From Gimesia sp. (GTDB taxonomy: Bacteria > Planctomycetota > Planctomycetia > Planctomycetales > Planctomycetaceae): 33,987 nt of DNA. Position numbers and translations under genes: made by a program. Of this stretch, positions 7,905 through 26,781 are shown in pieces; within the stretch, counting starts at the first letter, position 1; each line of letters opens with the position of its first letter. The stretch is from the NCBI GenBank assembly GCA_002706765.1, contig PAJV01000011.1, positions 12,534-46,520 of the forward strand. The letters are read 5' to 3'. The notes beneath the pieces are model-generated. The model was not told the DNA's origin, ran no database searches, and was given only the letters and a program-made list of their open reading frames with translations.

Positions 7905-9710
7905 ATGAAAACTGTGTTGACGCTGATGGCCTGCCTGGTGTTTCCTGCTGCATTGATTGCCGCGGACGATGTGATTTATCAAACTGGATTTGAAGCAGAT
8001 CAGGTGGGAACCGTTCCGGAGGGCTGGTCTGTTTTTCTGTCAGGCACTTCTCCCGATGTAAAAGTAGTTGCGCAGGGAGCAGGGGCATCGAAGCAGGCTC
8101 TCAAAAGCGTGCGTTCTACATCAGGTCGTCTGACTGCGATCACTCAGCGGTTTTCTCAGCCACAACAGAGACTGTTGATTGAACTGTCTTTTGCATTTTC
8201 ACCCGGTGCGGGTCGCTCTCTGAATCTATGGTCTTTCGAACCGGAGGGGACTGATGCCAGCCAGCTGAATCTCTGTATTCAAAATGGCAAATTGCAGCAG
8301 TATGATGGTCGTACCCGTGCCTGGCGATTGATCTCAAGTGACGTCGAACCTTCAAAGGATCCGGCGGATCCGATCTGGCATCGCCTGCGGATCCTGGTTG
8401 ATGCAAAGCAGACGGGCATTGATTTCTGGTTATCGAAACCGGGAGAACTCAAGCTGCCAGGATCTCCAACGGGAACTCTGCACGCTTACAGGACTGATCT
8501 GCAACTGTCAGGGCTGGCGCTGGTTTCGGGTACACGACTGGCGCAGGATGCCTGGTATCTGATTGATGATCTGGTGATCCAGGGAGGGACTCAACTGCCA
8601 GATCCGGGAAAAGTGGATCCACTGCCGGAACCGGTTATTCTCTGGACGGGACCGCCAATTCCCGCTGATCTCGCAGAGATTCCCACAGTGCCGGGTATGA
8701 CGCACCAGACAATTCATCGCGCCGAGAAGGACGGCTATAAATTTCTGCATGGTGCGGCCATCATTGCTCATCAGGGGGTTTTGTATGCGAACTGGGCTAA
8801 CAGTCCGGAACATGAAAATGGGCCGCATGAAACACTGCAGGGCCGTCGTTCTGAAGATGGCGGGAAGACCTGGTCGGAACTGGAAGTGATCGGACCCGGT
8901 TTCGAGGGGTCCGAGCGGCACAGTCATGGCGTGCTGTTGAAGCATCAGGGGAGATTATGGACGATCGGCAGTCGATTTGGAGTGGGTAAACCGGCAAAGC
9001 GTTTTCCCGGCCTCAAGGGAGAAGCATTCGTGCTGAATGAGGAAACGGATCGGTGGGAATCAAAGGGCATCGTGATGCAGAACTGCTGGCCTTACGATGA
9101 ACCGGTTCGCATGCCCGATGGGAATCTGATTACCGGCGGACAGGATCAGGATGGCCTGCCTGTCGTCGCCATCAGTCATGGCAATGATCTGCTGCATTGG
9201 GATACGGTTCAGATTCCGTATCCTCCCGAGCTGTCTCCCTCTTTTGCGGAGACGACGGTGGGCCTCGACGGGAAGAATGTTCGCGCGGTGATTCGTGGCG
9301 GCGGGGGAACGGCCTGGATTTCTGTCAGTCAGGATAACGGTCGCAGCTGGTCTCAGGCCCGACCCGCAAATCTGCCGATGCCGCGCGCCAAGGCGTATCT
9401 GGGGACACTTAGCACGGGACAGCAGTACCTGGTTTCCAATCTGAAAAACCGGGATACGCTGGTGATCTCTGTCAGTCAGCTTGGCGAATCTGCATTCAGT
9501 CGGATGTGGACGATTCGACATGGGAAATCGGTGCCTCCCCGCTTTTCCGGTTTCGCGAAAAGCAAGCAATGGTCATATCCCTATGCCCATGAACATGACG
9601 GCAAGCTCTACGTGGTGTACTCGATCGGGAAGGAAGATTGTGGCTTGTCGATACTGCCGGTGAAGTCACTGAAACCGGGCTCTCCTGCAGCAGGCAACGT
9701 CGTGAAGTAA
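7905..9710 (+). CDS. Exported sialidase-like (BNR repeat) protein with N-terminal jelly-roll-like domain
   Basis: The 601-residue protein has a signal peptide (1-20, cleavage ALIAA-DD). Residues about 22-230 look like a beta-sandwich of the concanavalin A/LamG type. A Pro-rich linker leads to a beta-propeller (about 258-590) with two clear Asp boxes, SEDGGKTW (316-323) and SQDNGRSW (475-482). This is the sialidase/neuraminidase superfamily fold, but I could not place the catalytic Arg triad, so exo-sialidase activity is not established. A glycan-binding or other glycosidase role is possible. AAAGG lies 7 nt before the ATG. It follows the sulfatase and dehydrogenase genes in the same direction, which suits breakdown of sulfated or complex glycans. 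Confidence 0.75.
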   Translation: MKTVLTLMACLVFPAALIAADDVIYQTGFEADQVGTVPEGWSVFLSGTSPDVKVVAQGAGASKQALKSVRSTSGRLTAITQRFSQPQQRLLIELSFAFSPGAGRSLNLWSFEPEGTDASQLNLCIQNGKLQQYDGRTRAWRLISSDVEPSKDPADPIWHRLRILVDAKQTGIDFWLSKPGELKLPGSPTGTLHAYRTDLQLSGLALVSGTRLAQDAWYLIDDLVIQGGTQLPDPGKVDPLPEPVILWTGPPIPADLAEIPTVPGMTHQTIHRAEKDGYKFLHGAAIIAHQGVLYANWANSPEHENGPHETLQGRRSEDGGKTWSELEVIGPGFEGSERHSHGVLLKHQGRLWTIGSRFGVGKPAKRFPGLKGEAFVLNEETDRWESKGIVMQNCWPYDEPVRMPDGNLITGGQDQDGLPVVAISHGNDLLHWDTVQIPYPPELSPSFAETTVGLDGKNVRAVIRGGGGTAWISVSQDNGRSWSQARPANLPMPRAKAYLGTLSTGQQYLVSNLKNRDTLVISVSQLGESAFSRMWTIRHGKSVPPRFSGFAKSKQWSYPYAHEHDGKLYVVYSIGKEDCGLSILPVKSLKPGSPAAGNVVK

Positions 9711-12052: not shown

Positions 12053-12181
12053 ATTCTGGTGGATTGGTTGACATGCCGTAATGAGACAGCCAGACTCAAA
12101 GGAAGAGTGTTTTCGGAAAACTCATCGGAAACCAGGTTCATAACTCAGTCTGGCAATCTACTACATACCGGAGAATTGCAG

Positions 12182-15100
12182 ATGCTTCTGTCAGTCACAG
12201 ATGTTTTTCAATCCGCCTGTTCGAACCGGAATCGAATTCGGAGACTCGCGATTCTGATATTGAACTGTCTGTTTTTTCTTCCTTACTCGCTGCGGGCAGC
12301 AGAGAAAACCGTCGAAACCGGTAATCGGCTGGTTTACCTGGATCAGGATGATCCCTATTACGTTTCGCGGGATTTTCCCAGGCTGACAACACCCCAGTGG
12401 TATGGAGATCCCACTGTCAAAGCGGTCTGTGTACTCGCCATTGATGACATGCGGGATATTCAGAAATACGAAACCTATCTGCGGCCGATTCTGGAGCGAC
12501 TCAAAGAAATCAACGGGAACGCGGGTGTCAGTATCATGACCTGCCGAGTTGATCCAGCTGATCCCCATCTGCAGAAATGGATACAGGAAGGGGTCAGCAT
12601 TGAAGTGCACACTTATGATCATCCCTGTCCACTCTTAAAAGATCGCGATTTTGAGAAAGCCAAAGGGACGGTGGATCGCTGTGTTGATCTGTTGAACGAG
12701 ATCCCAGGTAGCCGACCAGTTGCCTATCGCATGCCCTGTTGTGATTCGCTCAATACCGTCAGTCCCCGTTTTTTTACCGAGATCTTCAACAGTCGGTCTC
12801 CCCAGGGAAACTTTCTGCAGATTGACACTTCGGTTTTTCAGGTCTTCACAGACAAAGATCCGAAAATTCCGAAGGAGTATGTTGTCGATCCGGATGGACA
12901 GGGGCGGATTGAAAAGTATGTGCCCGTCGATCGGGGTTTTGTGAATACGATTTTTGACTATCCCTATCCGTACCCCATTTCGCGACTGTGCTGGGAGTTC
13001 TCCTGTGTGACTCCCAGTGACTGGTCTGCCCAGCATCGCCAGAAGCCGATGAACCCGCTGACGGTGCGTGACTGGACCGCCGTACTCGATGCGACTGTTG
13101 TCAAGCAGGGAACGTTCAATCTGGTCTTCCATCCGCATGGCTGGATCAGTAACGAGCAGGTCATCAAATTGATCGATCACGCGACCGAGAAACATGGAGC
13201 CGCGGTGCAGTTTCTCTCGTTTCGTGAAGTCCTCGACCGCATGAACCAGCACCTGCTGGCCGGACAGCCCCTGCGAAATCAGCAGGGGGCTGACAATGGC
13301 GTGAGACTGCTGGACTTGAACGGCGACGGTTTTATGGATGTCGTGATCGGTAATCAGAGTGTGCAGAAAACCCGCATCTGGAATCCGGATCAGGAAAACT
13401 GGGAGGAAAGTGCATTTCCGACACAACTGGTCTCAAAGCCTGCTGCGAACGGAACCCAGTCCATTCGCAGTCGCTTTGGAATTATGAATGACCAGGTGGT
13501 GCTGTTCACGCTGACTCCTGAGGAATCCAGCGCCTGGCGTTATGACGGCAAAAACTGGATCGAAGACAGTTCGCTTCTGGCCGGTTTACCTGCGGGCGAC
13601 GAATCTCTGTTCATTCTCAATTCGGGTATCGATCAGGGGCTCCGCCTGCGCGATTTGAACCACGATGGTCGATGCGAACTGATCATCTCAAATCCAGATC
13701 GGCAGGCTGTTTATATGTGGTCCGAGCAGAATTCAGAATGGCAGCAGCTTTCCTGGTCCCTTCCCGCAGATGCTCTGATCGTCGATGCGAAAGGTCGTGA
13801 CGCCGGCCTGCGGTTTGTCGATATCAATGAAGATGGTTTGGATGACGCTCTGTTTTCCAATGAAAGTCGCTATTCGCTGCATCTGTTTAAATCACTTGAG
13901 GAAGGCTGGAAGACGCTGTTTGAAAAGCAGAGAATGGGGGCCGGCGAAGTCCCCGCCATTTCCCGTAATGGCACGAATAATGGCGCCTGGTTTCATTCAA
14001 AACATCTCTGGGTTCAAAATGAAGACACAGTCAAACTGAAACATCTCGTCGCCGGTAAATCGTTTGCAGAACTGATGGAGTTACAGGGACCGCAACCCAA
14101 ATCTCCTTCGGCGGCGCTGGAAAGCATTCAAGTCAAACCGGGATTTCATGTGGAGCTGGTTGCCGCCGAACCTCTGGTGCAGGACCCGGTTGCCTTCGAC
14201 TGGGGACCAGATGGGAAACTCTGGGTAACAGAGATGGCTGACTATCCATTGGGGGTGGATGAGTCCGGAAAATTCGCCGGACGGGTTCGCTATCTGGAAG
14301 ACACCGACGGTGATGGTACGTATGACAAATCGACTTTGTTTTTAGAGGGACTGGGATATCCTACCGGTGTCATGTCCTGGCGCAACGGGGTGATTGTGAC
14401 GACGGCCCCGGAAGTGTTTTATGCGGAAGATACCGACGGAGACGGCAAAGCGGATCTGCGCGAATCGCTGTATACCGGCTTTGGAGAAGGGAACCAGCAG
14501 CATCGTGTCAATGGCCTGCGCTGGGGACTGGATAACTGGATTTATCTGGCCAATGGTGATTCCGGCGGTGATCTGCTCTCGGTCAAAACGGGAGAGAAAC
14601 TGACATTGGGGCGTCGGGATTTACGCGTCAGACCGGAGAGCGGCCTGATGGACCCGCAGTCGGGACAGACTCAGTTTGGTCGGGAACGCGATGACTGGGG
14701 CAACTGGTTCGGCAGCAACAACAGTAATCCTGCGTTTCATTATGCACTGACAGATCACTATCTCCGACGGAATCAAAGTCTCATTGCCCCCGATGCGAAA
14801 GTCCAGATTTCCAACCGGCCAGGTGCAGCGACTATATTTCCTGTCAGTCGGACTCAGGAACGCTTTAATGATTATAATAAAGTCAATCGCATCACCTCGG
14901 CATGTGGACTCTGTTTTTATCGGGATGAAATACTGGGCCCCGAAATCGTCGGCAATTCGTTTATCTGCGAACCGGTTCATAATCTGGTGCATCGGGAAAT
15001 TGTCACTCCCCAAGGGACCACTTTCACCAGCCGGCGGGCAGAGAATGAGCAGGATTCGGAGTTCATGTCTTCGACGGATAACTGGTTTCGCCCCACAATG

Positions 15101-17377
15101 GTACGCACTGGCCCTGACGGGGCACTCTGGGTGGCAGACATGTATCGCCATGTGATTGAGCACCCCCAGTGGATTCCACAGGAAATGCAGGAAAAGCTGG
15201 ATCTGCGTGCCGGGAAAGAGCAGGGGAGAATCTATCGAATCGTAAAAGATGAGACTCCGTTACGTTCAGTTCCCCGCCTGGATCAGTTGTCAGATTTCGA
15301 ACTGGTACAGGTGCTGGAGAGTCCCAACGGGACGCAGCGCGACATGGCCCATCAATGGCTCGTCAGTCGGAAGCAGAATGCGGCAGCACCAGATTTGAAG
15401 AGGATGGTATTCAACGGCAAAGCAGCGACGGCCCGGATGCATGCACTGTGTGTGCTGGATGGTTTAGGTGAAGTGACCGCGGAAGAAGTGCTCGCTGCTT
15501 TATCGGACTCACATCCGGGGGTACGCCGCCATGCGATTCGAATTGGGGAAGCTTTCGTCAATGAGACTCCCGAGATAGGATCGAAGTTGCTCAGCATGGT
15601 GAATGATCCGGATGCCCAGGTTCAAATGCAGCTAGCTTATTCTCTGGGAGAATGGAATTCACCGGAAGCGGGAGTTGCTCTGGCACAACTGGCGCTACAG
15701 CATGACCGGGATGCTTACCTGCGGACAGCGGTCTTGAGTTCGGTTGGAGCCCATCTGGATTCCTTCACCATCGCGCTCTTTCAAGAACTGAATGGCAAAC
15801 AGCCTCCCGCAGAGAGCTTTAATGCTCTTGTGGCGATGGCGGTTGCGGAGAATAATCAGGAGACGCTGAAGTATATTTATGATGTCGCCGCCAAGCGGAC
15901 TGCCGGGAAATCCTTTGAGCCGTGGCAGTTCCAGGCCATCTCTACTCTGCTGCAATCGCTGGGACGTCGCAATCTGTCTCTGCCTCAATTTTATCAGAAA
16001 TCCAGTCCACAATTGCAGCAGACACTCGATCAAATCAAACCGCTGTTCGCAGCAGCGCGCACTCTCGCTGCAGATGAATCTGCTTCAGTGCAACAGCGTC
16101 AACGGGTAGTCCCGATGCTGGGGCGTGGATTTGCGCATCGCGATGAAGATTTGGAACTGCTGTCCGATCTGCTTTCTCCCCGGAACTCACGGGAACTTCA
16201 GAGCGCCGCGGTTGTCGCGCTGACGCAATTCGGGAATCAGCAAACGCCGGAGATTCTGCTGAGCCGCTGGAAAAGCTTTGGTCCCGTGTTACGCACCGAT
16301 GTCTTGAATGCCCTGTTGAGTCGCAGTGCCTGGAGCCAGTCCGTGTTAACCGCACTCGAACAGAAAACAATACTTCCTGCCGAGATCGATGCATCGAGTC
16401 GTCAACTCCTGTTAAGCAGCAAAGACAATCAGGTCCGTAAACAGGCAGAACAGCTGCTGGCTTCCTCACTGAACTCGGATCGCGTGAAGGTTGTGGAAGA
16501 GTATTCAAAAGTGCTGGAGCTCAAAGGAAATGCCGAGGCGGGACATCAGATATTTGTCAAACGTTGTTCGGTCTGTCATCAACTGAATCAGGAAGGCAAG
16601 CCTATCGGCCCGGATTTGTCGGCATTGACTGATAAGTCTCAGCGCGCGTTGATCACCGCGATTCTGGATCCGAACCGGGCGATAGAAAATAAATATGTGA
16701 GCTATCTGGCGGTCACCGTCAACGGGCTGACATTTAATGGGTTGCTGGCAGGAGAAAGCGGGGAGAGTATTACGCTGATTCAGAATGATGGCAAAACAAA
16801 AACGCTGTTGCGTCATGATCTGGAGGAACTGCTCAGTACTGGAAAATCACTGATGCCGGAAGGATTGGAAAAAGACATGACTCTGCAGGATCTGGCTGAT
16901 GTGATTGCCTATCTGAATGCCACGGAATTACCCCGCAAGACGTTTAAGGGCAACGAACCGGCTGTAGTGGAAGCGGAAGCACTGAGGGGAGACTACTTTT
17001 TAACACCACAACTGGCTGAGATTTATGGGCAAACTTTGAAGTACGAAAACAAGTACAAAAATCTGGGATACTGGCAGAGTGAAAATGACCGGGCCGTGTG
17101 GACAATGGATGTGCCGAAGTCCGGCAAATATGATGTCTACCTGGAATATGCCTGCCCCCAGGGAGTCGCTGGCAATCTGATGCAGATGGAAGTCGCAGAT
17201 CAGCGATTGACCTGGACTGTAACCGCCACGGGCAGTTGGGACATTTATCAAAGCCGTAAACTCGGGACGATTGATATTCCCAGTGGTAAGACACGACTGA
17301 CGGTTCGCAGTGATGGTAAAATCAACCAGGCGCTGCTGGACCTGAAGACGGTTCGTCTGCGGGTTGCCAGTCAATAA
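12182..17377 (+). CDS. Giant exported fusion: NodB-like deacetylase, FG-GAP, PVC dehydrogenase, HEAT, cytochrome c, CBM-like
   Basis: The 1731-residue protein has a signal peptide (about 1-40, cleavage near RAA-EK). Residues 55-355 resemble polysaccharide deacetylases: Asp88-Asp89 in AIDDM, His143 and His147 in HTYDH (metal site), RMPC, and a late FHPHGW. Three FG-GAP-like repeats with DLNGDG, DLNHDG and DINEDG follow near 377, 492 and 545. About 645-1090 is a PVC dehydrogenase propeller, about 1100-1440 HEAT repeats, then a heme domain with CSVCH (Cys1462, Cys1465, His1466). The last ~140 residues form a beta-rich carbohydrate-binding-like domain. It may remove acetyl groups and oxidise a glycan product. 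The start at 12182 is chosen over an upstream GTG (12059) because GGAG lies 8 nt before it and the signal peptide follows. Confidence 0.88.
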   Translation: MLLSVTDVFQSACSNRNRIRRLAILILNCLFFLPYSLRAAEKTVETGNRLVYLDQDDPYYVSRDFPRLTTPQWYGDPTVKAVCVLAIDDMRDIQKYETYLRPILERLKEINGNAGVSIMTCRVDPADPHLQKWIQEGVSIEVHTYDHPCPLLKDRDFEKAKGTVDRCVDLLNEIPGSRPVAYRMPCCDSLNTVSPRFFTEIFNSRSPQGNFLQIDTSVFQVFTDKDPKIPKEYVVDPDGQGRIEKYVPVDRGFVNTIFDYPYPYPISRLCWEFSCVTPSDWSAQHRQKPMNPLTVRDWTAVLDATVVKQGTFNLVFHPHGWISNEQVIKLIDHATEKHGAAVQFLSFREVLDRMNQHLLAGQPLRNQQGADNGVRLLDLNGDGFMDVVIGNQSVQKTRIWNPDQENWEESAFPTQLVSKPAANGTQSIRSRFGIMNDQVVLFTLTPEESSAWRYDGKNWIEDSSLLAGLPAGDESLFILNSGIDQGLRLRDLNHDGRCELIISNPDRQAVYMWSEQNSEWQQLSWSLPADALIVDAKGRDAGLRFVDINEDGLDDALFSNESRYSLHLFKSLEEGWKTLFEKQRMGAGEVPAISRNGTNNGAWFHSKHLWVQNEDTVKLKHLVAGKSFAELMELQGPQPKSPSAALESIQVKPGFHVELVAAEPLVQDPVAFDWGPDGKLWVTEMADYPLGVDESGKFAGRVRYLEDTDGDGTYDKSTLFLEGLGYPTGVMSWRNGVIVTTAPEVFYAEDTDGDGKADLRESLYTGFGEGNQQHRVNGLRWGLDNWIYLANGDSGGDLLSVKTGEKLTLGRRDLRVRPESGLMDPQSGQTQFGRERDDWGNWFGSNNSNPAFHYALTDHYLRRNQSLIAPDAKVQISNRPGAATIFPVSRTQERFNDYNKVNRITSACGLCFYRDEILGPEIVGNSFICEPVHNLVHREIVTPQGTTFTSRRAENEQDSEFMSSTDNWFRPTMVRTGPDGALWVADMYRHVIEHPQWIPQEMQEKLDLRAGKEQGRIYRIVKDETPLRSVPRLDQLSDFELVQVLESPNGTQRDMAHQWLVSRKQNAAAPDLKRMVFNGKAATARMHALCVLDGLGEVTAEEVLAALSDSHPGVRRHAIRIGEAFVNETPEIGSKLLSMVNDPDAQVQMQLAYSLGEWNSPEAGVALAQLALQHDRDAYLRTAVLSSVGAHLDSFTIALFQELNGKQPPAESFNALVAMAVAENNQETLKYIYDVAAKRTAGKSFEPWQFQAISTLLQSLGRRNLSLPQFYQKSSPQLQQTLDQIKPLFAAARTLAADESASVQQRQRVVPMLGRGFAHRDEDLELLSDLLSPRNSRELQSAAVVALTQFGNQQTPEILLSRWKSFGPVLRTDVLNALLSRSAWSQSVLTALEQKTILPAEIDASSRQLLLSSKDNQVRKQAEQLLASSLNSDRVKVVEEYSKVLELKGNAEAGHQIFVKRCSVCHQLNQEGKPIGPDLSALTDKSQRALITAILDPNRAIENKYVSYLAVTVNGLTFNGLLAGESGESITLIQNDGKTKTLLRHDLEELLSTGKSLMPEGLEKDMTLQDLADVIAYLNATELPRKTFKGNEPAVVEAEALRGDYFLTPQLAEIYGQTLKYENKYKNLGYWQSENDRAVWTMDVPKSGKYDVYLEYACPQGVAGNLMQMEVADQRLTWTVTATGSWDIYQSRKLGTIDIPSGKTRLTVRSDGKINQALLDLKTVRLRVASQ

Positions 17378-17870: not shown

Positions 17871-20249
17871 GTGTCGGACAAAGGTTATCAAGATCCTGTA
17901 GATGGTGAAGAAACCGTCGATGAATTTCCCCCCGTCGACCCTGCGCAGGAAGAAACGGTGGATGAAGTTCCACCGCTTAACATCAAAGAGATCGACAAAA
18001 CCATGATTGGCGGTGACAGTATCACCGGCAAGTCTGCCCCTCATCTGGAAGGACCTTCCGCCGAGAAAGCTGCGGCCTGGATCGGAAAAAAACTGGGCAA
18101 ATATACGATTACCGGTCTCCTGGGACAGGGAGGGATGGGAGTCGTTTATAAAGCACATGACTCAACGATCGAACGTGACGTCGCCATCAAACTGCTGCCA
18201 GCCGAACTGGCTTCAGATAAAATGATGCTGGATCGATTTCTGGCAGAGGCAAAAGCCGCCGGTCGCTTAACGCATCCTCACGTGGTTTCGATTCACGAAA
18301 TCGGCCAGGAGGGGGATGTCAATTATATTGTGATGGAGCTGATGACAGGTGGCAGTACTGATGACCATCTGGAATCGATCGGGCCTTATTCCCCTCTGGA
18401 GGCTTCACGCATTATCGCGGATGCCTGTGAAGGCTTGATGGTGGCCCATGCCTCCGGACTGGTGCACCGTGATATCAAGCCGGGAAATCTGTTGCAGTCG
18501 GCACATGGCACGATCAAGGTTGCTGATTTTGGTCTGGCGAAACGCATCATTCAACAGTCGATGCAGCTGACCCAGGATGGCCAGCTGATCGGGACGCCTT
18601 ACTTCATGAGTCCCGAACAATGTGAATCCAAACCCGTCGATATGCGGAGTGATATCTATTCTCTGGGGGCTACGTATTACACACTGCTGACAGGCGATCA
18701 TCCCTATGAGGATGCTGGCAGCATTGTGCAGATCATGTATGCCCATTGTCATGCCGACATTCTTGATCCCCGTGATGTGAATTCGAGTATTCCCGATAAA
18801 TGTGCTTCCATTGTCAGTAAGTCGATGGCAAAAAATCCGGAAGACCGGTATCAGTCTGCCAGAGAAATGCTGCTGGATCTGAAAGCGGTCACTGCCAGTG
18901 CAGAAAAATATGATGACACAAAGATTCTGAGCCGGGAAGAACTGGAAGGCGAAGCGGTACCCGCTCCGTCTGCTGCACCCTGGCGGGGGACGGTGTTTAG
19001 CACGATCATTTTTCTGGTGACCTTTCTGTTATTAACGCTGGTGCCTTACTATTACTGGAACAACGGTCCCCGCGAGAATGCGACGGGGCCGGCTGCTCCG
19101 AAACAACAGGCGGGATCTGTCGCGCAGGGAATTACGAAAGATAAAATCATTCTGGCGACTTCAACCGCCATGACCGGTGCCAACAAGGAACTGGGAACCA
19201 ATATGGTCATGGGGATGCAGGCCTGTTTTAAATCGATCAACGAAGCGGGCGGTATCGGTGGGCGTCAGATTGAACTGGTTGTGAAAGATGACGGGTATGA
19301 GCCGGACCAGGCCCTGGAGAACATGCAAACACTGTTCGAAAAGGAAAAAGTGTTTGCCGTGATTGGGAATGTCGGCACTCCGACTGCCCAGGCGACCGTG
19401 CCTTATGCCAACGAGAATCAGCATCTGTTCTTTGCACCCTTCACAGGAGCGCAGAGCCTGCGACGTGATCCCCCCGATCGCTATGTATTCAATCTCCGTG
19501 CCAGTTATGCTGATGAAACCGCAGCAATGGTTAATTATTTTGTTGAAAAGAAACGCATCGCACCTGAGAAAATTGCTGTATTCGCTCAAAATGATTCCTT
19601 CGGCGATGATGGTTTTGCAGGTGTGGCGAAAGCACTGGAAAAATATAAAATCCAGCCGGAAAATATTATCCGGGTTGGTTATGAGCGAAACACCACGCAG
19701 ATTACAGATGCTTTCAAACAGATTGAACAGAACCAGGACCGAATCGAAGCCTTGATCATGGTGGCCACTTATAAACCGGCAGCATTAATGGTACAGAAAA
19801 TTAAAGATAGTAATCTGAATATTCAAACTGCCGCGGTATCCTTTGTCGGGAGCGAACTGCTGGCCCAGCAGTTTAAAGAAATGGGTTCTCAGTATGCAGA
19901 AAAAGTGATTGTGACCCAGGTGGTACCCTACTATCTTTCGAGTGCCACCGGCGTGTTACGGTATCGTAATGCCATGAAAAAGTTCTACCCCCTTTCCAGG
20001 CCGGGTTTTGTTTCACTGGAAGGCTACCTTGCGGCTGAATGCCTGGTGGAAGGCTTCAAGGTACTGGAGAAATCAGGCAAACCCCTCACGACAGAAAATC
20101 TGATCAATGCGCTGGAACAGATTAATGGTCTGGATCTGGGGATCGGCCCGATCATTACTTTCGGTCCTTCACGGCATCAGGCTTCCAACCGGGTCTGGGG
20201 CACTGTCTTGGATAAAGAAGCACGATACAAAGAGCTGGACATGGAGTAA
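17871..20249 (+). CDS. Receptor Ser/Thr kinase with LivK-type periplasmic binding domain
   Basis: The 792-residue protein has three parts. After a Glu/Pro-rich, acidic start comes a Hanks-type kinase (about 78-340): GQGGMG glycine loop (85-90), Lys107 in VAIK, HRD (199-201), DFG (219-221) and SPE (247-249), so it should be active. One membrane helix spans about 374-395. The outside part (about 420-790) resembles type-I periplasmic binding proteins of the LivK/branched-chain amino acid family: KIILATSTAMTGANKELG at its start, then IGNVGTPTAQATVPYANE and FAQNDSFGDDG. The design suggests a small-molecule receptor that signals by phosphorylation. The GTG start is set by a TGA three codons earlier in frame; its ribosome site is weak. 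Cognate transporter genes are not adjacent. Confidence 0.9.
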   Translation: MSDKGYQDPVDGEETVDEFPPVDPAQEETVDEVPPLNIKEIDKTMIGGDSITGKSAPHLEGPSAEKAAAWIGKKLGKYTITGLLGQGGMGVVYKAHDSTIERDVAIKLLPAELASDKMMLDRFLAEAKAAGRLTHPHVVSIHEIGQEGDVNYIVMELMTGGSTDDHLESIGPYSPLEASRIIADACEGLMVAHASGLVHRDIKPGNLLQSAHGTIKVADFGLAKRIIQQSMQLTQDGQLIGTPYFMSPEQCESKPVDMRSDIYSLGATYYTLLTGDHPYEDAGSIVQIMYAHCHADILDPRDVNSSIPDKCASIVSKSMAKNPEDRYQSAREMLLDLKAVTASAEKYDDTKILSREELEGEAVPAPSAAPWRGTVFSTIIFLVTFLLLTLVPYYYWNNGPRENATGPAAPKQQAGSVAQGITKDKIILATSTAMTGANKELGTNMVMGMQACFKSINEAGGIGGRQIELVVKDDGYEPDQALENMQTLFEKEKVFAVIGNVGTPTAQATVPYANENQHLFFAPFTGAQSLRRDPPDRYVFNLRASYADETAAMVNYFVEKKRIAPEKIAVFAQNDSFGDDGFAGVAKALEKYKIQPENIIRVGYERNTTQITDAFKQIEQNQDRIEALIMVATYKPAALMVQKIKDSNLNIQTAAVSFVGSELLAQQFKEMGSQYAEKVIVTQVVPYYLSSATGVLRYRNAMKKFYPLSRPGFVSLEGYLAAECLVEGFKVLEKSGKPLTTENLINALEQINGLDLGIGPIITFGPSRHQASNRVWGTVLDKEARYKELDME

Positions 20250-20665: not shown

Positions 20666-21895
20666 ATGAGTTCTGAGTCATCATCTGGGATTATCGAACA
20701 GCCGGGAATCGCTTCCGAGCGCATGACACTTGAGGTAATGGCTTCCCGGTTTCTGGAAGAACATCGCCGCTGGCTCAATCCCTCCATAAAAGCATATGTG
20801 AATTCCTGTCCGGAATATGCTGACGAAATCCGCGAAAGTTTTCCTGTTCTGATCGCGATGGAGGAGTGGAAAACGAATCAGGAATTTACCAGGTTGAGAA
20901 AACAGGTTCCAGCAGATTTCGAGAACCGTCATTTGGGGAACTGTCGGATCTTGAAAGAAATCAGCCGAACTCGTACTTCAATCATCTACTCCGCGGAGCA
21001 GGGGCCTCAGCAGCGCAGTGTGGCGATTAGACTGTTTCCCTGGAAATCGGAATGTTCTCCTCGCTGGCGAGACCGTTTTCTATGCGAGTCGCGCCTGGTG
21101 TTTCAATCGAGACATCCCAATATTGTTTCGGTTGACAGCATTGAGAAAGACCAGGGGTATACTTACACGGTGATGCAACTGGTTTCCGGGATCAGTCTGG
21201 ATCAGGTTTTACAAGGCCTGGGCTGTAAACAGGCAGGGGCAGGGGGCTCTGACCAATTCGAATCCCAGACGGGTTACCTGTACCAGGAACAGCTTACTCA
21301 GGTCGTGAATTCTTTCAGGCAGAACTACTGGCGGTCGGTTGCCCGTCTGGGACTACAAGCTGCCAATGCTCTGCGTTTTGCTCATAGACGGGGTAAGTTA
21401 CACTGTGATTTGAGGCCCGCTCATCTGATTGTGAACCGGGAAGGACACTGCTGGCTGACAGGTTTCAGTTTACCACAACAACTGGAGGGCACACTTAAGC
21501 AGCAACGTGTCCCGACTCTGCAGTACCAGTCTCCGGAACGGATTCAGGGGGAAATGGGTAAAATCAGTGACCTCTATTCTCTGGGATGTGTTCTGTACGA
21601 ACTCGCTACGCTCACGCCGGCATTCCAGGCAGCGAACTCCGGCGCGCTGATCGAGCAGATTCTGAAGGGGAGATATACCCGTCCGTGTGAAATTGTCAGC
21701 GAGATTCCCTCTGCGCTGGAAAATATTATTTCCAGATGTCTGGCCAGTTCGAGGCAGGATCGATTTCAGTCGGCTGACGAACTGAGTATCAACCTGGTCC
21801 GTTTTCTGAACGGTCATGACTTTAAAAACCATGTGAAGTCTGATTGGAAGGGACGCGGTAAATGGTCTGTCTTCAGGAAAAATGACATTCAGTAA
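20666..21895 (+). CDS. Cytoplasmic pseudokinase
   Basis: The 409-residue protein starts with the planctomycete kinase preface (about 22-70: SIKAYVNSCPEYADEIRESF), then a kinase-like fold (about 90-395). Catalytic features are lost: the glycine loop reads EISRTRTSIIY, the ATP-binding Lys is Arg122 (VAIR), the loop reads HCDLRPAHL (Asp248 kept, Asn now His253), and DFG reads GFS (266-268). The SPE motif and C-lobe (DLYSLGCVLYEL) are kept. It has no membrane helix. Such proteins usually act as scaffolds or allosteric partners. It resembles the kinase encoded tail to tail 34 bp away (similar preface, inserted segment before the catalytic loop, FAHRRGKLHCD versus YAHDRGILHRD), which suggests duplication and decay. 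GAGGGG precedes the ATG. Confidence 0.88.
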   Translation: MSSESSSGIIEQPGIASERMTLEVMASRFLEEHRRWLNPSIKAYVNSCPEYADEIRESFPVLIAMEEWKTNQEFTRLRKQVPADFENRHLGNCRILKEISRTRTSIIYSAEQGPQQRSVAIRLFPWKSECSPRWRDRFLCESRLVFQSRHPNIVSVDSIEKDQGYTYTVMQLVSGISLDQVLQGLGCKQAGAGGSDQFESQTGYLYQEQLTQVVNSFRQNYWRSVARLGLQAANALRFAHRRGKLHCDLRPAHLIVNREGHCWLTGFSLPQQLEGTLKQQRVPTLQYQSPERIQGEMGKISDLYSLGCVLYELATLTPAFQAANSGALIEQILKGRYTRPCEIVSEIPSALENIISRCLASSRQDRFQSADELSINLVRFLNGHDFKNHVKSDWKGRGKWSVFRKNDIQ

Positions 21896-21929: not shown

Positions 21930-24839
21930 TCAAAAGCGAGGAGGACCAGGTCTGTTGGGGCCGCGGTGAGGACGTCTGTGTTGCAACGGATGGAGACCAC
22001 CGTGCCGCGATGAATGAGATTCATCGGACATGGGTAATGCTGCATGAGGGAACTTCTGCTTGAAATCTTCCATGAGCTGATCGTACTGGTCCCACATGAT
22101 CCAACTTTCAACCTCGTTGCCGACATGATGATAGATGCGGGCCAGCCCTTCTGTGGCACCTGAAAGCTCACGATACACAGGGTAGGAGTGGGGGTCCGTT
22201 TTCAATTCGAGCTGGAGTATATTTATCGCACTTTTGAGAAGGCTGATGGCTTCGGTTTCGCTCCCTTTTTTATAGAGGATTTCAGCCAGTCCGGCTTCAA
22301 ACTTGGCCATCCAGAGGCGGTGTTCTGGTGCTTCCGGGAACTGAAGGGTCAGTTCTTTCTGTAACCTGAGAGCCGTTCTAAGCGAGAGTTCAGCAGTATC
22401 GTGGCGCGTACGGATTTCGTTAGATGCTCCTGACAGCCTGGTCATTTTATCGAGGCCATGGGCCAGCTTGTTATGCGCATGGATCAGAGAAATTTTGTAT
22501 TCCGGAATGGTGGGGTAATCAGAGACGAGACGGCTGGCATGCTGGATGGCCTGTTCCAGCCGTCCGATGACATTCTCATCGATTTCTTCCGGATTCACAC
22601 GTCTGATATCAATTCGCTCATAAGATTTCACAACAGCCTGACGGTAATCTGCGACATGGGGATGCTCTTCAACCAGGGTTTCCAGGATTTCCAGCGCGCG
22701 CGCCTGTTTGCCCTGATCTTGTGTTGATCGTACATACTCGGCGGGAAGCTGTTCCTGCAGGCAAAGCGCAAGCAGATAGCGATATTCCGGATTGGTCTGA
22801 TCTGATTTACTCAGATTTTCAAGAATGTCGATGGCCTGCTGGAGCTGAATTCGGTCCTCTGCTGCTGGCATGGATCCGTCTGGCGGGGAAGGCCGTTCGA
22901 TTTCCGAAATCGCGTTTCCTAATTGATCGGGTCGAAGCTGGATGACCTTCAGAAAAAAGGTTCGTGCGAGTTCAAATTGCAGATCATTCTGTTCCTGGTC
23001 GGCAACAAGCGTTGCCTCTAAGAGTTTTTCTGCTCGCTTATGAGCAAGTGTCGCTTCATTCTGTTGGCCCAGATAGCGGTAAATTCGCCCGATTTCATTA
23101 TATAAAGTGGCAATGATCAGTGCGTTCGCTTCCCCGGTGTTTTGTTGATAGAGGTGAAGTGATTTCTGATATGAAGCCAGGGCAGAACTGAAGTCTCCCA
23201 GCCGACGATGAATATCACCGACCTTCCGTTGTGCGTTTGCGGCTTTGTTCTGGAACTCTTCCTGTTCCCCCGTCGATTCTGCCAGCTGTTCATAGAACTG
23301 GACCATGCCCGCCAGCAGGTCTGCTGATTCACGGGACAGTATCGGCTCTGCATAGCCATCCCCGGCTCCGGAAACCTCGGTTGTATGCAGGCGCGCAGGG
23401 ACAAAGCGGTCGAAGAGACGATCCAGGGCATTCGTTGCCAGTTGAGCCGTTGATTCCGCTCGCTTTCGTTCCCGCCGCTCTCTTTCAAATCCCACTGCCA
23501 GGGAAATTCCCAGAGCCAGCATCAGCAGCAGAGCCAGTCCGGATAGAGATGCAACTGCAGGATTGCGGCAGCTCCAGCGCCACAGAGATTCGAGAAGGGA
23601 AACCCGTTTCGCCCGGATGGGGCGATTCTCCAGAAAGCGATGCAGGTCGCTGGCAAGTTCACTGGCTGACTGATACCGGTGTTTCGTATCAGGGGCGATC
23701 GCTTTGAGAATAATGGTTTCCAGATCGCGGGGAATTCGTGGATTGATTCGCCTCAGAGAGGGGATCGTGCCATGAGTGATTTGTTCAATCATGACGTGCC
23801 GACTGGTTCGCTCAATCGCATACTGTTTCGTTAGAAGTTCATAGAGCGTAATTCCCAGTCCATAAATATCACTCTGGCGGCAGGTTTCTCCCCGAAACAT
23901 TTCCGGAGCCATATATCCCAGCGTTCCCACGATGTCAGTCGACTTACTGAGGTCGCTCTGTTCGGCGGCGCGTGCCAGCCCGAAATCGGTGATACACAAC
24001 AGGCCCTCGCGGTCGAGCAGCAGATTTCCTGGTTTAATATCGCGATGCAGGATACCCCGATCGTGTGCGTATTGCAGAGCATTGGCCGCCTGAATTCCCA
24101 GTTCAGCAATCTTAGCAGGTGTTGAGACAAACTTTGCGAAGTCTGCTGAGCTCTGACCTGCGACCTCCGAAATTTCGGATCGCTGGAACTCAACAGTTTC
24201 ATCCAACGCAGTAGAAATGTCAGTGCTGGTATGGGTCTGTGAACCAGGCTTGATAGTCTGGCTTTTGAGGTCTGTATTTGCAGCAGTTGCAACGAGTTTC
24301 TGTGTCAGTTCATCCAGTCCGAGGCCTTCAATCAACTGCATGACGTAATAGTGGAAATTGCCGTTTTCACCCACCCCGAATACCGGAACAATATTCGTAT
24401 GATGCAGTGAAGCCGTCAGCTCCGCTTCTCTGCGGAATCGTTTCAGTTGTTTGTCATCAAGCAGCGAATGTCGTGGCAGCAGTTTCAAAGCCACACGACG
24501 ATTGAGTGATTCCTGGATTGCTTCGTAGACGACGCCCATGCCGCCACGACCGATTTCCCGGACAATCTTAAAATCACCCAGTTGTTCTGGTGCGCTGGCT
24601 CCCAGGGAGACTTTGCCAGGAGTTTGTGCGGTATATTTCCCACCTTCCAGGGCTAAGATGGCGGGAAAAAACTCTTCGATTTCACTGGCGAGTTCCGGAT
24701 AACGGTTTACATATTCCGGGATGGTCGGCTTTTCACCCTGGCGAATTTTTGCGATGAATTCGTCAGCGACCCGGTCCAGATCGGTGGTTTCCGGAGGAGT
24801 CAGATTTTTGATCGATTGAGGTGAATCGGGAGATGACAT
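21930..24839 (-). CDS. Membrane Ser/Thr kinase with C-terminal TPR-like region
   Basis: The 969-residue protein has the planctomycete preface (about 20-65: PEYVNRYPELASEIEEFF), then a complete Hanks kinase (about 88-400) with GRGGMG (98-102), Lys119, HRD (265-267), DFG (285-287) and APE (311-313). A low-complexity Thr/Ser-rich insert lies at about 180-240. One membrane helix (about 431-451) and a basic juxtamembrane stretch follow, then a helical TPR-like region (about 455-930) likely outside, and a short His/Pro/Arg-rich tail. An ECF sigma gene lies 56 bp upstream in the same direction, a pairing well known in Planctomycetota, where the kinase probably controls sigma activity. AGGA lies 9 nt before the ATG. 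Confidence 0.92.
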   Translation of the reverse strand: MSSPDSPQSIKNLTPPETTDLDRVADEFIAKIRQGEKPTIPEYVNRYPELASEIEEFFPAILALEGGKYTAQTPGKVSLGASAPEQLGDFKIVREIGRGGMGVVYEAIQESLNRRVALKLLPRHSLLDDKQLKRFRREAELTASLHHTNIVPVFGVGENGNFHYYVMQLIEGLGLDELTQKLVATAANTDLKSQTIKPGSQTHTSTDISTALDETVEFQRSEISEVAGQSSADFAKFVSTPAKIAELGIQAANALQYAHDRGILHRDIKPGNLLLDREGLLCITDFGLARAAEQSDLSKSTDIVGTLGYMAPEMFRGETCRQSDIYGLGITLYELLTKQYAIERTSRHVMIEQITHGTIPSLRRINPRIPRDLETIILKAIAPDTKHRYQSASELASDLHRFLENRPIRAKRVSLLESLWRWSCRNPAVASLSGLALLLMLALGISLAVGFERERRERKRAESTAQLATNALDRLFDRFVPARLHTTEVSGAGDGYAEPILSRESADLLAGMVQFYEQLAESTGEQEEFQNKAANAQRKVGDIHRRLGDFSSALASYQKSLHLYQQNTGEANALIIATLYNEIGRIYRYLGQQNEATLAHKRAEKLLEATLVADQEQNDLQFELARTFFLKVIQLRPDQLGNAISEIERPSPPDGSMPAAEDRIQLQQAIDILENLSKSDQTNPEYRYLLALCLQEQLPAEYVRSTQDQGKQARALEILETLVEEHPHVADYRQAVVKSYERIDIRRVNPEEIDENVIGRLEQAIQHASRLVSDYPTIPEYKISLIHAHNKLAHGLDKMTRLSGASNEIRTRHDTAELSLRTALRLQKELTLQFPEAPEHRLWMAKFEAGLAEILYKKGSETEAISLLKSAINILQLELKTDPHSYPVYRELSGATEGLARIYHHVGNEVESWIMWDQYDQLMEDFKQKFPHAALPMSDESHSSRHGGLHPLQHRRPHRGPNRPGPPRF

Positions 24840-24895
24840 TCACTTTGGTCCTGGCGATTTCGCTCTGTGAAGAAATGCACTTCAGAGAAGACTGG

Positions 24896-25528
24896 TTAAT
24901 CTATAATACCGGGGATCTGAACCAGAATGGAGCGTAATCTGGTCAGGGCCCGAAAATATCGCATACTGGCAGTTTTGGGTTCGATTTCCAGAACTTCGGA
25001 AGCCTCGAGGTTGGACAGTTCTTCGAAATGTCTCAAGACCAGAATTTCCCGATCAATCTCATTTAATGATTCGAGTGCTTCACGCAGTTGAATGGCCAGT
25101 TCTTCCTTGAGGGCCGCCTGACTGGGAGATGTCATATCACCCAGAAGGACATTGGCAATCTGAAAAGAAGTCGAGGCTGAGAAAACACGACGCCTGGCAT
25201 TGGCTTCACGCCGCACATCCCGTTTTTGCGCCCCCAGATGTCGTCGATGGACGTCAATCAGAGTCTGTCCGACAATGGTTCGGAGCCAGATGAAGAATGT
25301 GGTAGCCGGGTCATTCAGATAATGTCCAATTCGCGTGGAGGCATCAAGATATGCTTCCTGCAGTATGTCATCCGCATCAACACGACCCAGCAGGCGTGTA
25401 TCCAGACGAAAATTAACGATCCGCCACAATCGTTCCCGGTAGCGGTTATATTCGTCTGCAAGCACCCCTTCCGGATTCGCTTGTAGCCGGTTGAGAAAGA
25501 TCTCAGGGTCTTCTTGCTCATCACACAA
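24896..25528 (-). CDS. ECF-type RNA polymerase sigma factor, kinase-linked
   Basis: The 210-residue protein has region 2 (about 25-95) with DADDILQEAYLDA and the FFIWLRTIVGQTLIDVHRRH helix, a variable linker, and region 4 (about 150-205) with LNEIDREILVLRHFEELSN and a recognition helix near EIEPKTASMRYFRALTRL. It should direct RNA polymerase to its own promoter set. No anti-sigma gene is adjacent; instead a Ser/Thr kinase gene follows 56 bp downstream, as in kinase-linked ECF groups of planctomycetes, so control by phosphorylation is likely. The start is TTG, supported by GGGGAG about 9 nt before it. The stretch 25529-25806 upstream holds no gene I trust. Confidence 0.9.
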   Translation of the reverse strand: MCDEQEDPEIFLNRLQANPEGVLADEYNRYRERLWRIVNFRLDTRLLGRVDADDILQEAYLDASTRIGHYLNDPATTFFIWLRTIVGQTLIDVHRRHLGAQKRDVRREANARRRVFSASTSFQIANVLLGDMTSPSQAALKEELAIQLREALESLNEIDREILVLRHFEELSNLEASEVLEIEPKTASMRYFRALTRLRSILVQIPGIID

Positions 25529-25806: not shown

Positions 25807-26781
25807 TTATATGGCCTTGTCGTGTTGTTTATCTCGATCATTATTATTGTGATCCGGTTTTGGGGAGTTTTCTTTTTCCTGAGAAGCAGGATCTTCTGAA
25901 GTACCGGTATCTGCTTCCAGGGAATCAGCCAGCAAAACGTCCTGATCTCCGAGATCCAGAAACCTGGCAACCACGGCTGTGATATTGTCTGTCCCTCCCT
26001 GATCGATTGCCTGATTGATGAGACGGATACAGGTTTCATCGGCCATCCGGTTCTGGCTGAGAATTTCGGAGAGAATCAGATCAGGAACCTGTCTGGTTAA
26101 GCCATCGGTACATAACAGCAAAGTGTCTCCAACGCGAACTTCTGTTTTGACAATTTCGGGATTTAAATTACTGTCTCCGTTACCTCCGATAGAATTTACC
26201 AGGAGTTCCTGCCAGATTTCCGGAACTTCATCGACATCTAATGCGCCGCTGGTTACCAGTTGTTCTGCAAAATTGTGATCTCTCGTTAACTGATGCAGGT
26301 GGGAGTTGCGAAACAGATAGCAGCGACTGTGCCCAGTGTGAACCAGATACAACTGAGGCCAGACCAGATAGGCCAGGGTTAATGTGGTCTCCATTCCGGA
26401 ACGTTCAGGATGTTCCTGAATATCATCCTCCAGTCGCTCCTGGCAAAGTTCAAAGGCATTTAAGAATTCTCGATACAATTCTGCATCGGTATCCTCATTG
26501 TAATGCAGAAACCATTCCATCTCATTCAACAGGTATCGGGAAATGCAGTCTGTCACCAGGCGACTTGCCAGATCCCCTGAATTAGAACGACCCACTCCGT
26601 CTGCCACCATCATCAGTTTAGCCTGGGAGTTCCCATAGAGCCTGGAGTTTTCATCCAGGCTCAGGCTGCTGCAGTGGACCCGCATCGATTTTTCCAGATC
26701 CGCAATCAGAAACTGGTCCTGGTTGATTTCATATCGGGAGCCACTACGGGATAGGCCATAACAGTCCATTTTGCCGGTCAT
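25807..26781 (-). CDS. PP2C-type Ser/Thr protein phosphatase
   Basis: The 324-residue protein shows PP2C motifs in order: NQD (Asp22), ADGVGR (Asp61-Gly62), GMETTLTLAYL, HTGHSRCYLFR (149-158), TRDHN, CTDGL (Asp226) and GGTDNITAVV (Asp265). These keep the two-metal centre residues. In the fourth motif the usual Asp of GDSR is His151; in some PP2C enzymes that Asp helps hold a third metal. A charged tail (about 285-324) is likely disordered. It has no membrane helix. By family it reverses Ser/Thr phosphorylation and probably opposes the nearby kinases. AGGAGG lies 7 nt before the ATG. It is set 278 bp upstream of the sigma-kinase pair, same strand, so may be transcribed separately. Confidence 0.9.
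   Translation of the reverse strand: MTGKMDCYGLSRSGSRYEINQDQFLIADLEKSMRVHCSSLSLDENSRLYGNSQAKLMMVADGVGRSNSGDLASRLVTDCISRYLLNEMEWFLHYNEDTDAELYREFLNAFELCQERLEDDIQEHPERSGMETTLTLAYLVWPQLYLVHTGHSRCYLFRNSHLHQLTRDHNFAEQLVTSGALDVDEVPEIWQELLVNSIGGNGDSNLNPEIVKTEVRVGDTLLLCTDGLTRQVPDLILSEILSQNRMADETCIRLINQAIDQGGTDNITAVVARFLDLGDQDVLLADSLEADTGTSEDPASQEKENSPKPDHNNNDRDKQHDKAI

Follow-up and report, generated by a model that had tools for sequence, protein, structure and literature searches.

Results

Domain organisation of the Gimesia receptor

The window analysed here is a 33,987-nucleotide stretch of DNA from Gimesia sp. (assembly GCA_002706765.1, contig PAJV01000011.1, positions 12,534 to 46,520 of the forward strand), and our subject is a gene at positions 17871 to 20249 of it, whose product joins a Hanks-type kinase through a single membrane helix to a type-I periplasmic binding domain. 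Genomes and loci used for comparison carry handles beginning with G and L, respectively. The gene and the parts of its product are as follows.

17871..20249 (+): kinase-transmembrane-binding-domain receptor, 792 aa, GTG start, single uninterrupted frame
17871..18053 (+): predicted disordered cytoplasmic N-terminal tail, residues 1-61, with two EETVDE(F/I/V)PP motifs and pLDDT below 50
18102..18863 (+): Hanks-type kinase domain, residues 78-331, from Pfam, the invariant columns and a fold match to PknB (5u94)
18984..19061 (+): predicted single transmembrane helix, residues 372-397, a hydrophobic stretch that is helical in the model at moderate pLDDT
19122..20246 (+): predicted extracytoplasmic type-I periplasmic binding (Venus flytrap) domain, residues 418-792, from Peripla_BP_6 and 4kv7

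A domain search with Pfam over the 792 residues placed both halves well above their cut-offs. Pkinase (PF00069) covered residues 78-331 (E 1.6e-50, 172 bits against a cut-off of 31.7) and Peripla_BP_6 (PF13458) covered residues 430-781, corresponding to positions 6-339 of a 343-position profile (E 8.2e-56, 190.6 bits against 31.7), with ANF_receptor also matching the protein (E 3.3e-8). The kinase half carries the GQGGMG G-loop, K107 of VAIK, E126 of the alpha-C helix, HRDIKPGN, DFG and SPE, and T234 of the activation segment, a candidate autophosphorylation site, is invariant among the aligned relatives. When the Protein Data Bank (PDB) was searched by sequence, 4kv7 headed the list for the sensor half (E 4.4e-75), followed by Mycobacterium tuberculosis PknB for the kinase half. 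The best PDB matches found by Foldseek were likewise 4kv7 from Rhodopirellula baltica (TMt 0.87, 36% identity) and M. tuberculosis PknB 5u94 (TMt 0.92). An AlphaFold model, built on a 27-row alignment of the query with 26 kinase-fused relatives, had a mean predicted local distance difference test (pLDDT) score of 78.5, with the kinase and the binding domain folded and the helix at residues 372-397 scoring about 60-80; stretches below 50 were confined to residues 1-61, 225-239, 345-373 and 398-415. Thus the complete kinase core, the one membrane helix and the full type-I binding domain seen in a preliminary description of this DNA were all borne out.

The N-terminal tail holds at least one copy of ETVDEF in 14/14 full-length Gimesia proteins, the second copy being varied or missing in some. 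The repeated motif is a candidate phosphorylation or docking site.

The fusion is retained in Gimesia and both halves are constrained

The genome from which the window comes (7.9 Mb, 78 contigs) was compared with 16 other genomes of the genus. The receptor runs as a single open frame of 779-825 aa in 13 of these, of which nine are one-contig assemblies, and the G-loop, VAIK, HRDxKPxN and DFG are intact in 13/13 copies. The other three are G011, where the copy is interrupted by a contig end, G015, a 74% complete genome in which a receptor match was absent, and G004, which is considered in the Discussion. Joining of two genes by chance, or by an assembly or frame error as in one of the outcomes that the preliminary description said would overturn it, is hardly credible. 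In its favour, the separate kinase and binding-protein genes of one planctomycete locus (L185) overlap by 4 nt, so that little would be needed to fuse or separate them. However, the same open frame recurs in 13/16 other Gimesia genomes, and a kinase lies in the same frame at 23 of the 80 best of 419 related loci described below, which rules out an artefact.

Ratios of non-synonymous to synonymous substitution (dN/dS) were measured for six pairs, of which the two least diverged, G008 and G014, with dS below 1 in both the kinase and the binding domain, were used; the other four were set aside, since dS exceeded 1.6 or was infinite in both halves. The kinase gave dN/dS values of 0.026 and 0.029 and the binding domain 0.040 and 0.045, compared with 0.16 and 0.24 in the linker and helix (where dS reached 1.08 in G008). 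Both halves of the receptor are under strong constraint.

A sensor subfamily with kinase fusions beyond the genus

Scanning of genome_contigs with nine binding domains, 7/9 rows of the alignment being kinase-fused, yielded 419 relatives, and the 80 best matches were analysed further. A kinase lay upstream in the same open reading frame (ORF) in 23/80 loci, a proportion that, given this selection and the mostly fused alignment, is not a frequency. HRDxKxxN was present in 22/23 of the fused kinases, with L049 reading HRDVTPSN. The phylum labels of the fused form were Planctomycetota, Acidobacteriota, Myxococcota and Pseudomonadota, mostly from metagenome bins, which were the sole source of the Acidobacteriota and Myxococcota labels; named strains with the fused form included Hahella ganghwensis DSM 17046 and Zavarzinella formosa DSM 19928. 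The bin labels need caution, because L046 and L048, both among the 23, are the same fusion protein recovered in a single groundwater project, once under Chloroflexi and once under Planctomycetota, and L042, in a bin titled Emcibacter, has a binding domain 80% identical to that of Gimesia. Some of these bins probably bear a wrong label or contain more than one organism.

Other arrangements accompanied the same sensor. In L047, L054 and L060 (titled Acidobacteria, Myxococcales and Myxococcaceae) DUF4388 stands ahead of the binding domain, from which a hydrophobic stretch separates it, and in L059 and L072, both full proteins from Bradyrhizobium, a signal-like start and about 110 further residues precede the binding domain, with no kinase. 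Three further Bradyrhizobium loci (L097, L106 and L108) each have three consecutive ORFs of the sensor subfamily, with no kinase match. Among plasmids, no kinase-fused relative was found, and 0/1138 matched records reached 80% coverage of the query at a single site. In a sample of Planctomycetota, 34/392 genomes matched at E 1e-40 or better, and 11 of these were kinase-fused, namely nine Gimesia (the window's own included), G020 and G177. The sensor half constitutes a distinct subfamily.

Sensor and kinase have different histories

A quick tree of the binding domains was made from 61 domains together with LivJ and LivK, after 131 rows had been found, 128 proved usable and near-copies above 75% identity had been dropped. 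Its labels are rough, DUF4388 having been set by a short pattern and L060 being labelled 'alone' though Pfam shows DUF4388 there. The 21 kinase-fused rows required 2 changes on this tree against 17.7 in shuffles; all five rows linked to histidine kinases fell inside one nine-row group (support 91), and 8/9 rows linked to methyl-accepting chemotaxis proteins (MCPs) fell inside one 13-row group (support 100).

A careful tree of 33 kinases (21 fused and 12 for comparison) did not unite the fused kinases in one group. The best tree uniting all 21 was rejected by the approximately unbiased (AU) test (p-AU 0.0066), and with it the descent of all the fused kinases from one ancestor, with the cautions that a small number of kinases (12) served for comparison, two rows sit on long branches and a quick tree had been seen beforehand. 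The fused kinases of Gemmataceae, Zavarzinella, G053 and L052 grouped instead with two sensor-less kinases of the Gimesia genome (98/93 support). For groups named after the tree had been seen, the union of A with C was rejected (p 0.020) and that of A with B was not (p 0.27). Outside the genus the binding half was closer to the query than the kinase, at 59% vs 43% in G020 and 44% vs 35% in G053; within Gimesia, kinase identity equalled or exceeded that of the binding half in 5/6 comparisons. Related sensors are thus joined to different kinase lineages, as a result either of separate fusions or of kinase replacement.

Most stand-alone relatives in Planctomycetota lie beside signalling genes

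The 22 stand-alone loci of Planctomycetota comprised 21 from the 392-genome sample (G385 and the broken G174 left out) and G041, with flanking sequence of up to about 10 kb and in many cases less. Partner genes were first spotted by phmmer with a few queries and then checked with Pfam. A histidine kinase gene follows on the same strand in 7/22 (L136, L137, L168, L170, L173, L176 and L187), at distances from overlap to 44 bp; Pfam backs six of these seven (L168 was unscanned), L137 and L187 having HATPase_c without HisKA. In another 7/22 (L169, L177, L178, L181, L182, L183 and L186) an MCP gene lies no more than 84 bp downstream on the same strand, with Pfam backing all seven, and two plasmid relatives, from Ruegeria and Halomonas, adjoin MCP genes too. 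A Hanks kinase gene lies upstream in 3/22, overlapping by 4 nt in L185 and standing at 225 bp in L171 and 516 bp in L174, the latter two being weak cases. The pair at positions 1-2277 of L185, a Hanks kinase gene followed by a binding-protein gene, is a two-gene counterpart of the fusion.

Little support for a role in transport

Peripla_BP_6 proteins are mostly partners of importers, and it could be envisaged that the binding domain still serves an ATP-binding cassette (ABC) importer, handing substrate to a permease while the kinase reports on transport. LivH and LivM were indeed found together nearby in 3/83 loci from genome_contigs and plasmids, namely L051 (titled Deltaproteobacteria), L072 and L116 (Bradyrhizobium). 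They were found, however, in 0/22 of the stand-alone Planctomycetota loci, within the flanks given above, and no Liv-type permease was found in the host genome. There the receptor is the sole Peripla_BP_6 protein above the cut-off, a second match reaching 29.4 bits against 31.7 and being nearest to allose/ribose-type binding proteins. Three host stretches matching BPD_transp_2 scored 171-229 bits with sugar (ribose-type) permease families and at most 39.5 bits with LivM/LivH, in a scan of the matched stretches only in which none reached its family cut-off. An ABC import role in the host is thus unsupported and a coupling of the kinase to transport is very unlikely; the receptor is probably a sensor rather than part of an importer.

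The predicted ligand pocket

In the type-I protein LivJ we take the ligand contacts to be S79, T102, Y202 and E226, and from these 21 cleft-aligned positions were derived in a MAFFT alignment with LivJ and LivK. At these positions, for which the numbers are indicative, identity to the query was 0.90 in 20 kinase-fused, 0.90 in five histidine kinase-linked and 0.89 in nine MCP-linked rows, whereas over the whole domain it was 0.50, 0.39 and 0.38, respectively. LivJ and LivK had 0.10 by MAFFT, and 4/21 by hhalign as counted by eye. Conservation of the cleft across output types points to one ligand or ligand class common to the subfamily, and a ligand is probably shared within it. This bears also on the possibility that the domain reads a soluble protein carrying the ligand, or a piece of the cell wall, and so protein contact or the state of the envelope. 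There are precedents, as the soluble binding protein of the PknG system acts through another membrane protein (PMC6069109, in excerpt) and PASTA kinases sense wall fragments (PMC5786024, in excerpt). The cleft positions, however, are far better kept than the rest of the domain across outputs, as would be anticipated for a small ligand, and we consider such a stimulus improbable.

The preliminary description had called the domain one of the LivK kind and proposed an amino acid as ligand. The label was not borne out, since the NCBIfam LivJ/K model NF011933 gave 53.5 bits against a cut-off of 477 when the whole fusion protein was scanned, and the host lacks a detected Liv permease. An alpha-amino acid, as a special case of the receptor-kinase reading, is conceivable, though somewhat less likely than not. 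Many type-I domains bind amino acids, and the invertebrate receptor kinase VKR is activated by L-arginine (PMC2680970, in excerpt). In the pocket itself, LivJ S79 falls on Thr503 under both MAFFT and hhalign, retaining the hydroxyl, with Thr in 58/61 subfamily rows; both alignments also place T102 on Gly526 (61/61 rows), which argues against an amino acid. The two remaining contacts depend on the alignment. By hhalign, Y202 and E226 fall on Tyr634 (57/61) and Glu662, as an amino acid ligand would favour, while MAFFT places them on Thr633 and Ser657 (Ser in 61/61). Moreover, residue 662 is Glu in just 13/61 rows and Arg or Lys in 8/61, and the low LivJ/K score tells against such a ligand as well. 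Taken over the alignments, the candidate pocket residues are T503, T505, F524, G526, S545, Y546, E549, D575, Y634, S657 and E662. A literature search for the ligand of 4kv7 or 3lop brought up only unrelated texts.

Neighbouring genes in the window

Upstream of the receptor, 12059-17377 (+) encodes a 1772-aa protein with polysaccharide-deacetylase, FG-GAP, DUF7133, HEAT and cytochrome c matches, a homologue of which is present in 6/6 Gimesia flanks. In G004 (L138) the upstream neighbours, a DUF7133 protein, GntR and fasciclin, are retained beside a receptor remnant. The gene directly downstream, 20666-21895 (+), encodes a kinase-like protein in which the Asp of DFG is missing in 5/5 aligned Gimesia copies (TGFS, TGFC, TGFA and NNFS), making it a likely pseudokinase; its homologue occurs in 4/6 Gimesia flanks (L129-L132, not L133 or L138). 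Beyond it, a kinase with TPR repeats adjoins a sigma-70/ECF-type factor, followed by a PP2C-type phosphatase (21930-25528 (-) and 25807-26781 (-)). Homologues of the TPR kinase and the sigma factor follow the receptor in 4/6 Gimesia flanks (L129-L132), and of the phosphatase in L130 only. As clues to the ligand, the window's neighbours (sulfatase, DUF7133/cytochrome c, fasciclin and GntR) were uninformative.

Discussion

The domain order, the kept frame, the kinase motifs, the constraint on both halves, the signalling context of most stand-alone relatives in Planctomycetota and the conservation of the cleft together lead us to regard the Gimesia protein as most likely a ligand-gated, probably dimeric, single-pass Ser/Thr receptor kinase. 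The C-terminal Venus flytrap domain, outside the cytoplasmic membrane, would close on a small ligand; closure would alter the arrangement of the chains, probably two, via the single helix; the rearranged chains would switch the cytoplasmic PknB-like kinase, and this would then phosphorylate cytoplasmic targets. Ligand binding, dimerisation, the direction of the switch and the targets are what we infer. Of the one-chain chemoreceptor first proposed, the single chain with its kinase inside and type-I domain outside stands, as does a sensor being likelier than a transporter, while the amino acid ligand was not shown.

Several observations weigh against this reading. In G004 (L138, about 8131-8412) there is only a decayed C-terminal remnant with 98 residues matched and stops, and the receptor gene is therefore dispensable there. 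The full-length model has a predicted template modelling (pTM) score of 0.52, so that the mutual placement of the kinase and sensor halves is not predicted. A histidine kinase, MCP or Hanks kinase partner was absent from the flanks of 5/22 stand-alone loci (L172, L175, L179, L180 and L184, the neighbours of L184 being unscanned). An upstream ORF in L175 has a response-regulator match, and in L172, L179 and L180 none of the ORFs scanned further downstream had a Pfam match. Gene adjacency alone does not, in any case, prove partnership. To these may be added the three loci with LivH and LivM, all outside Planctomycetota, where a role in transport is conceivable. Finally, the set of cleft positions was built from the LivJ contacts, was enlarged once the alignment had been seen and depends on the alignment, and ASY..ET, one motif used to fetch the genome_contigs loci, overlaps it; as most rows linked to histidine kinases or MCPs were gathered by profile search and not by the motif scan, this selection effect is limited.

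The closest solved structure to the sensor half, 4kv7, is a possible leucine/isoleucine/valine-binding protein whose solved chain, unlike the Gimesia receptor, has no kinase. In VKR the sensor presumably sits at the N-terminal end, unlike that of the Gimesia protein. The invertebrate receptor shares the Venus flytrap domain, the one membrane helix and the kinase domain and is dimeric, although it is a tyrosine kinase close to insulin receptors and not a Ser/Thr kinase (PMC2680970, in excerpt); the two would be of separate origin. BvgS-type proteins likewise have a Venus flytrap sensor fused to a bacterial kinase, but theirs is a histidine kinase of a two-component system in place of a Hanks kinase (PMC4352136, in excerpt). 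In the PknG-GlnX-GlnH system of actinobacteria an external solute-binding protein controls an internal Ser/Thr kinase, as proposed here, though by three proteins acting in trans through GlnX in contrast to one chain (PMC6069109 and PMC9769921, both in excerpt).

The nearest precedents are the Ser/Thr kinases with a solute-binding domain in the same polypeptide, named "SBP kinases" in an excerpt of PMC6069109, which gives MSMEG_1200 as an example and "a further 260" from InterPro. The Gimesia receptor has this same combination in one chain and is thus not new in kind, and the novelty that the preliminary description implied, by contrast with the usual PASTA, TPR or propeller sensors, was overstated. 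A literature search for a product name covering kinase/ABC-binding-protein fusions in Streptomyces had no hits. The StpK7/MSMEG_1200 equivalog model NF052427 nevertheless reached only 207 bits against a cut-off of 900, aligning residues 73-416 (kinase to helix) with positions 4-337 of 601. The remainder of the model is unaligned with the Peripla_BP_6 half of the Gimesia protein, which suggests that the StpK7 sensor, as judged from the NF052427 model alone, is probably of another type. The PASTA-kinase model NF033483 gave 308.4 bits against 450 over residues 76-348 only, and no PASTA family appeared in the Pfam list of the receptor. In excerpts of PMC13293324, Pkinase co-occurs with five SBP_bac_3 proteins, and Peripla_BP_6 co-occurs with DAO and not with Pkinase. 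Excerpts of PMC11032199 give TPR, WD40, sulfatase-modifying, DUF1080 and tubulin-like domains as the main kinase partners in Planctomycetota and speak of 105 accessory domains and 307 architectures; its main text has no mention of Peripla_BP, solute-binding, substrate-binding or ABC transporter, and the supplement may list the combination. What this analysis adds is a sensor subfamily with several output types, together with the mismatch between sensor and kinase histories, and no paper on either was found among open-licence papers.

More tentatively, and with the odds somewhat against it, one Venus flytrap clade may sense the same small molecule in at least four phyla, wired in cis to Hanks kinases of more than one lineage or to DUF4388, and in trans to histidine kinases, MCPs or a separate Hanks kinase. 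If this is true, the molecule would serve as a widespread environmental or community signal, for which the Gimesia protein would be the Ser/Thr-kinase receptor. What stimulates bacterial Ser/Thr kinases is described as an outstanding question (PMC6069109, in excerpt). In the present case the domain presumed to bind the ligand lies in the kinase's own chain; it has a solved relative in 4kv7, and its stand-alone relatives adjoin genes for histidine kinases and chemoreceptors. Once a ligand is known for one member it could be tried on the rest, so that what stimulates an entire group of Ser/Thr kinases would become directly testable.

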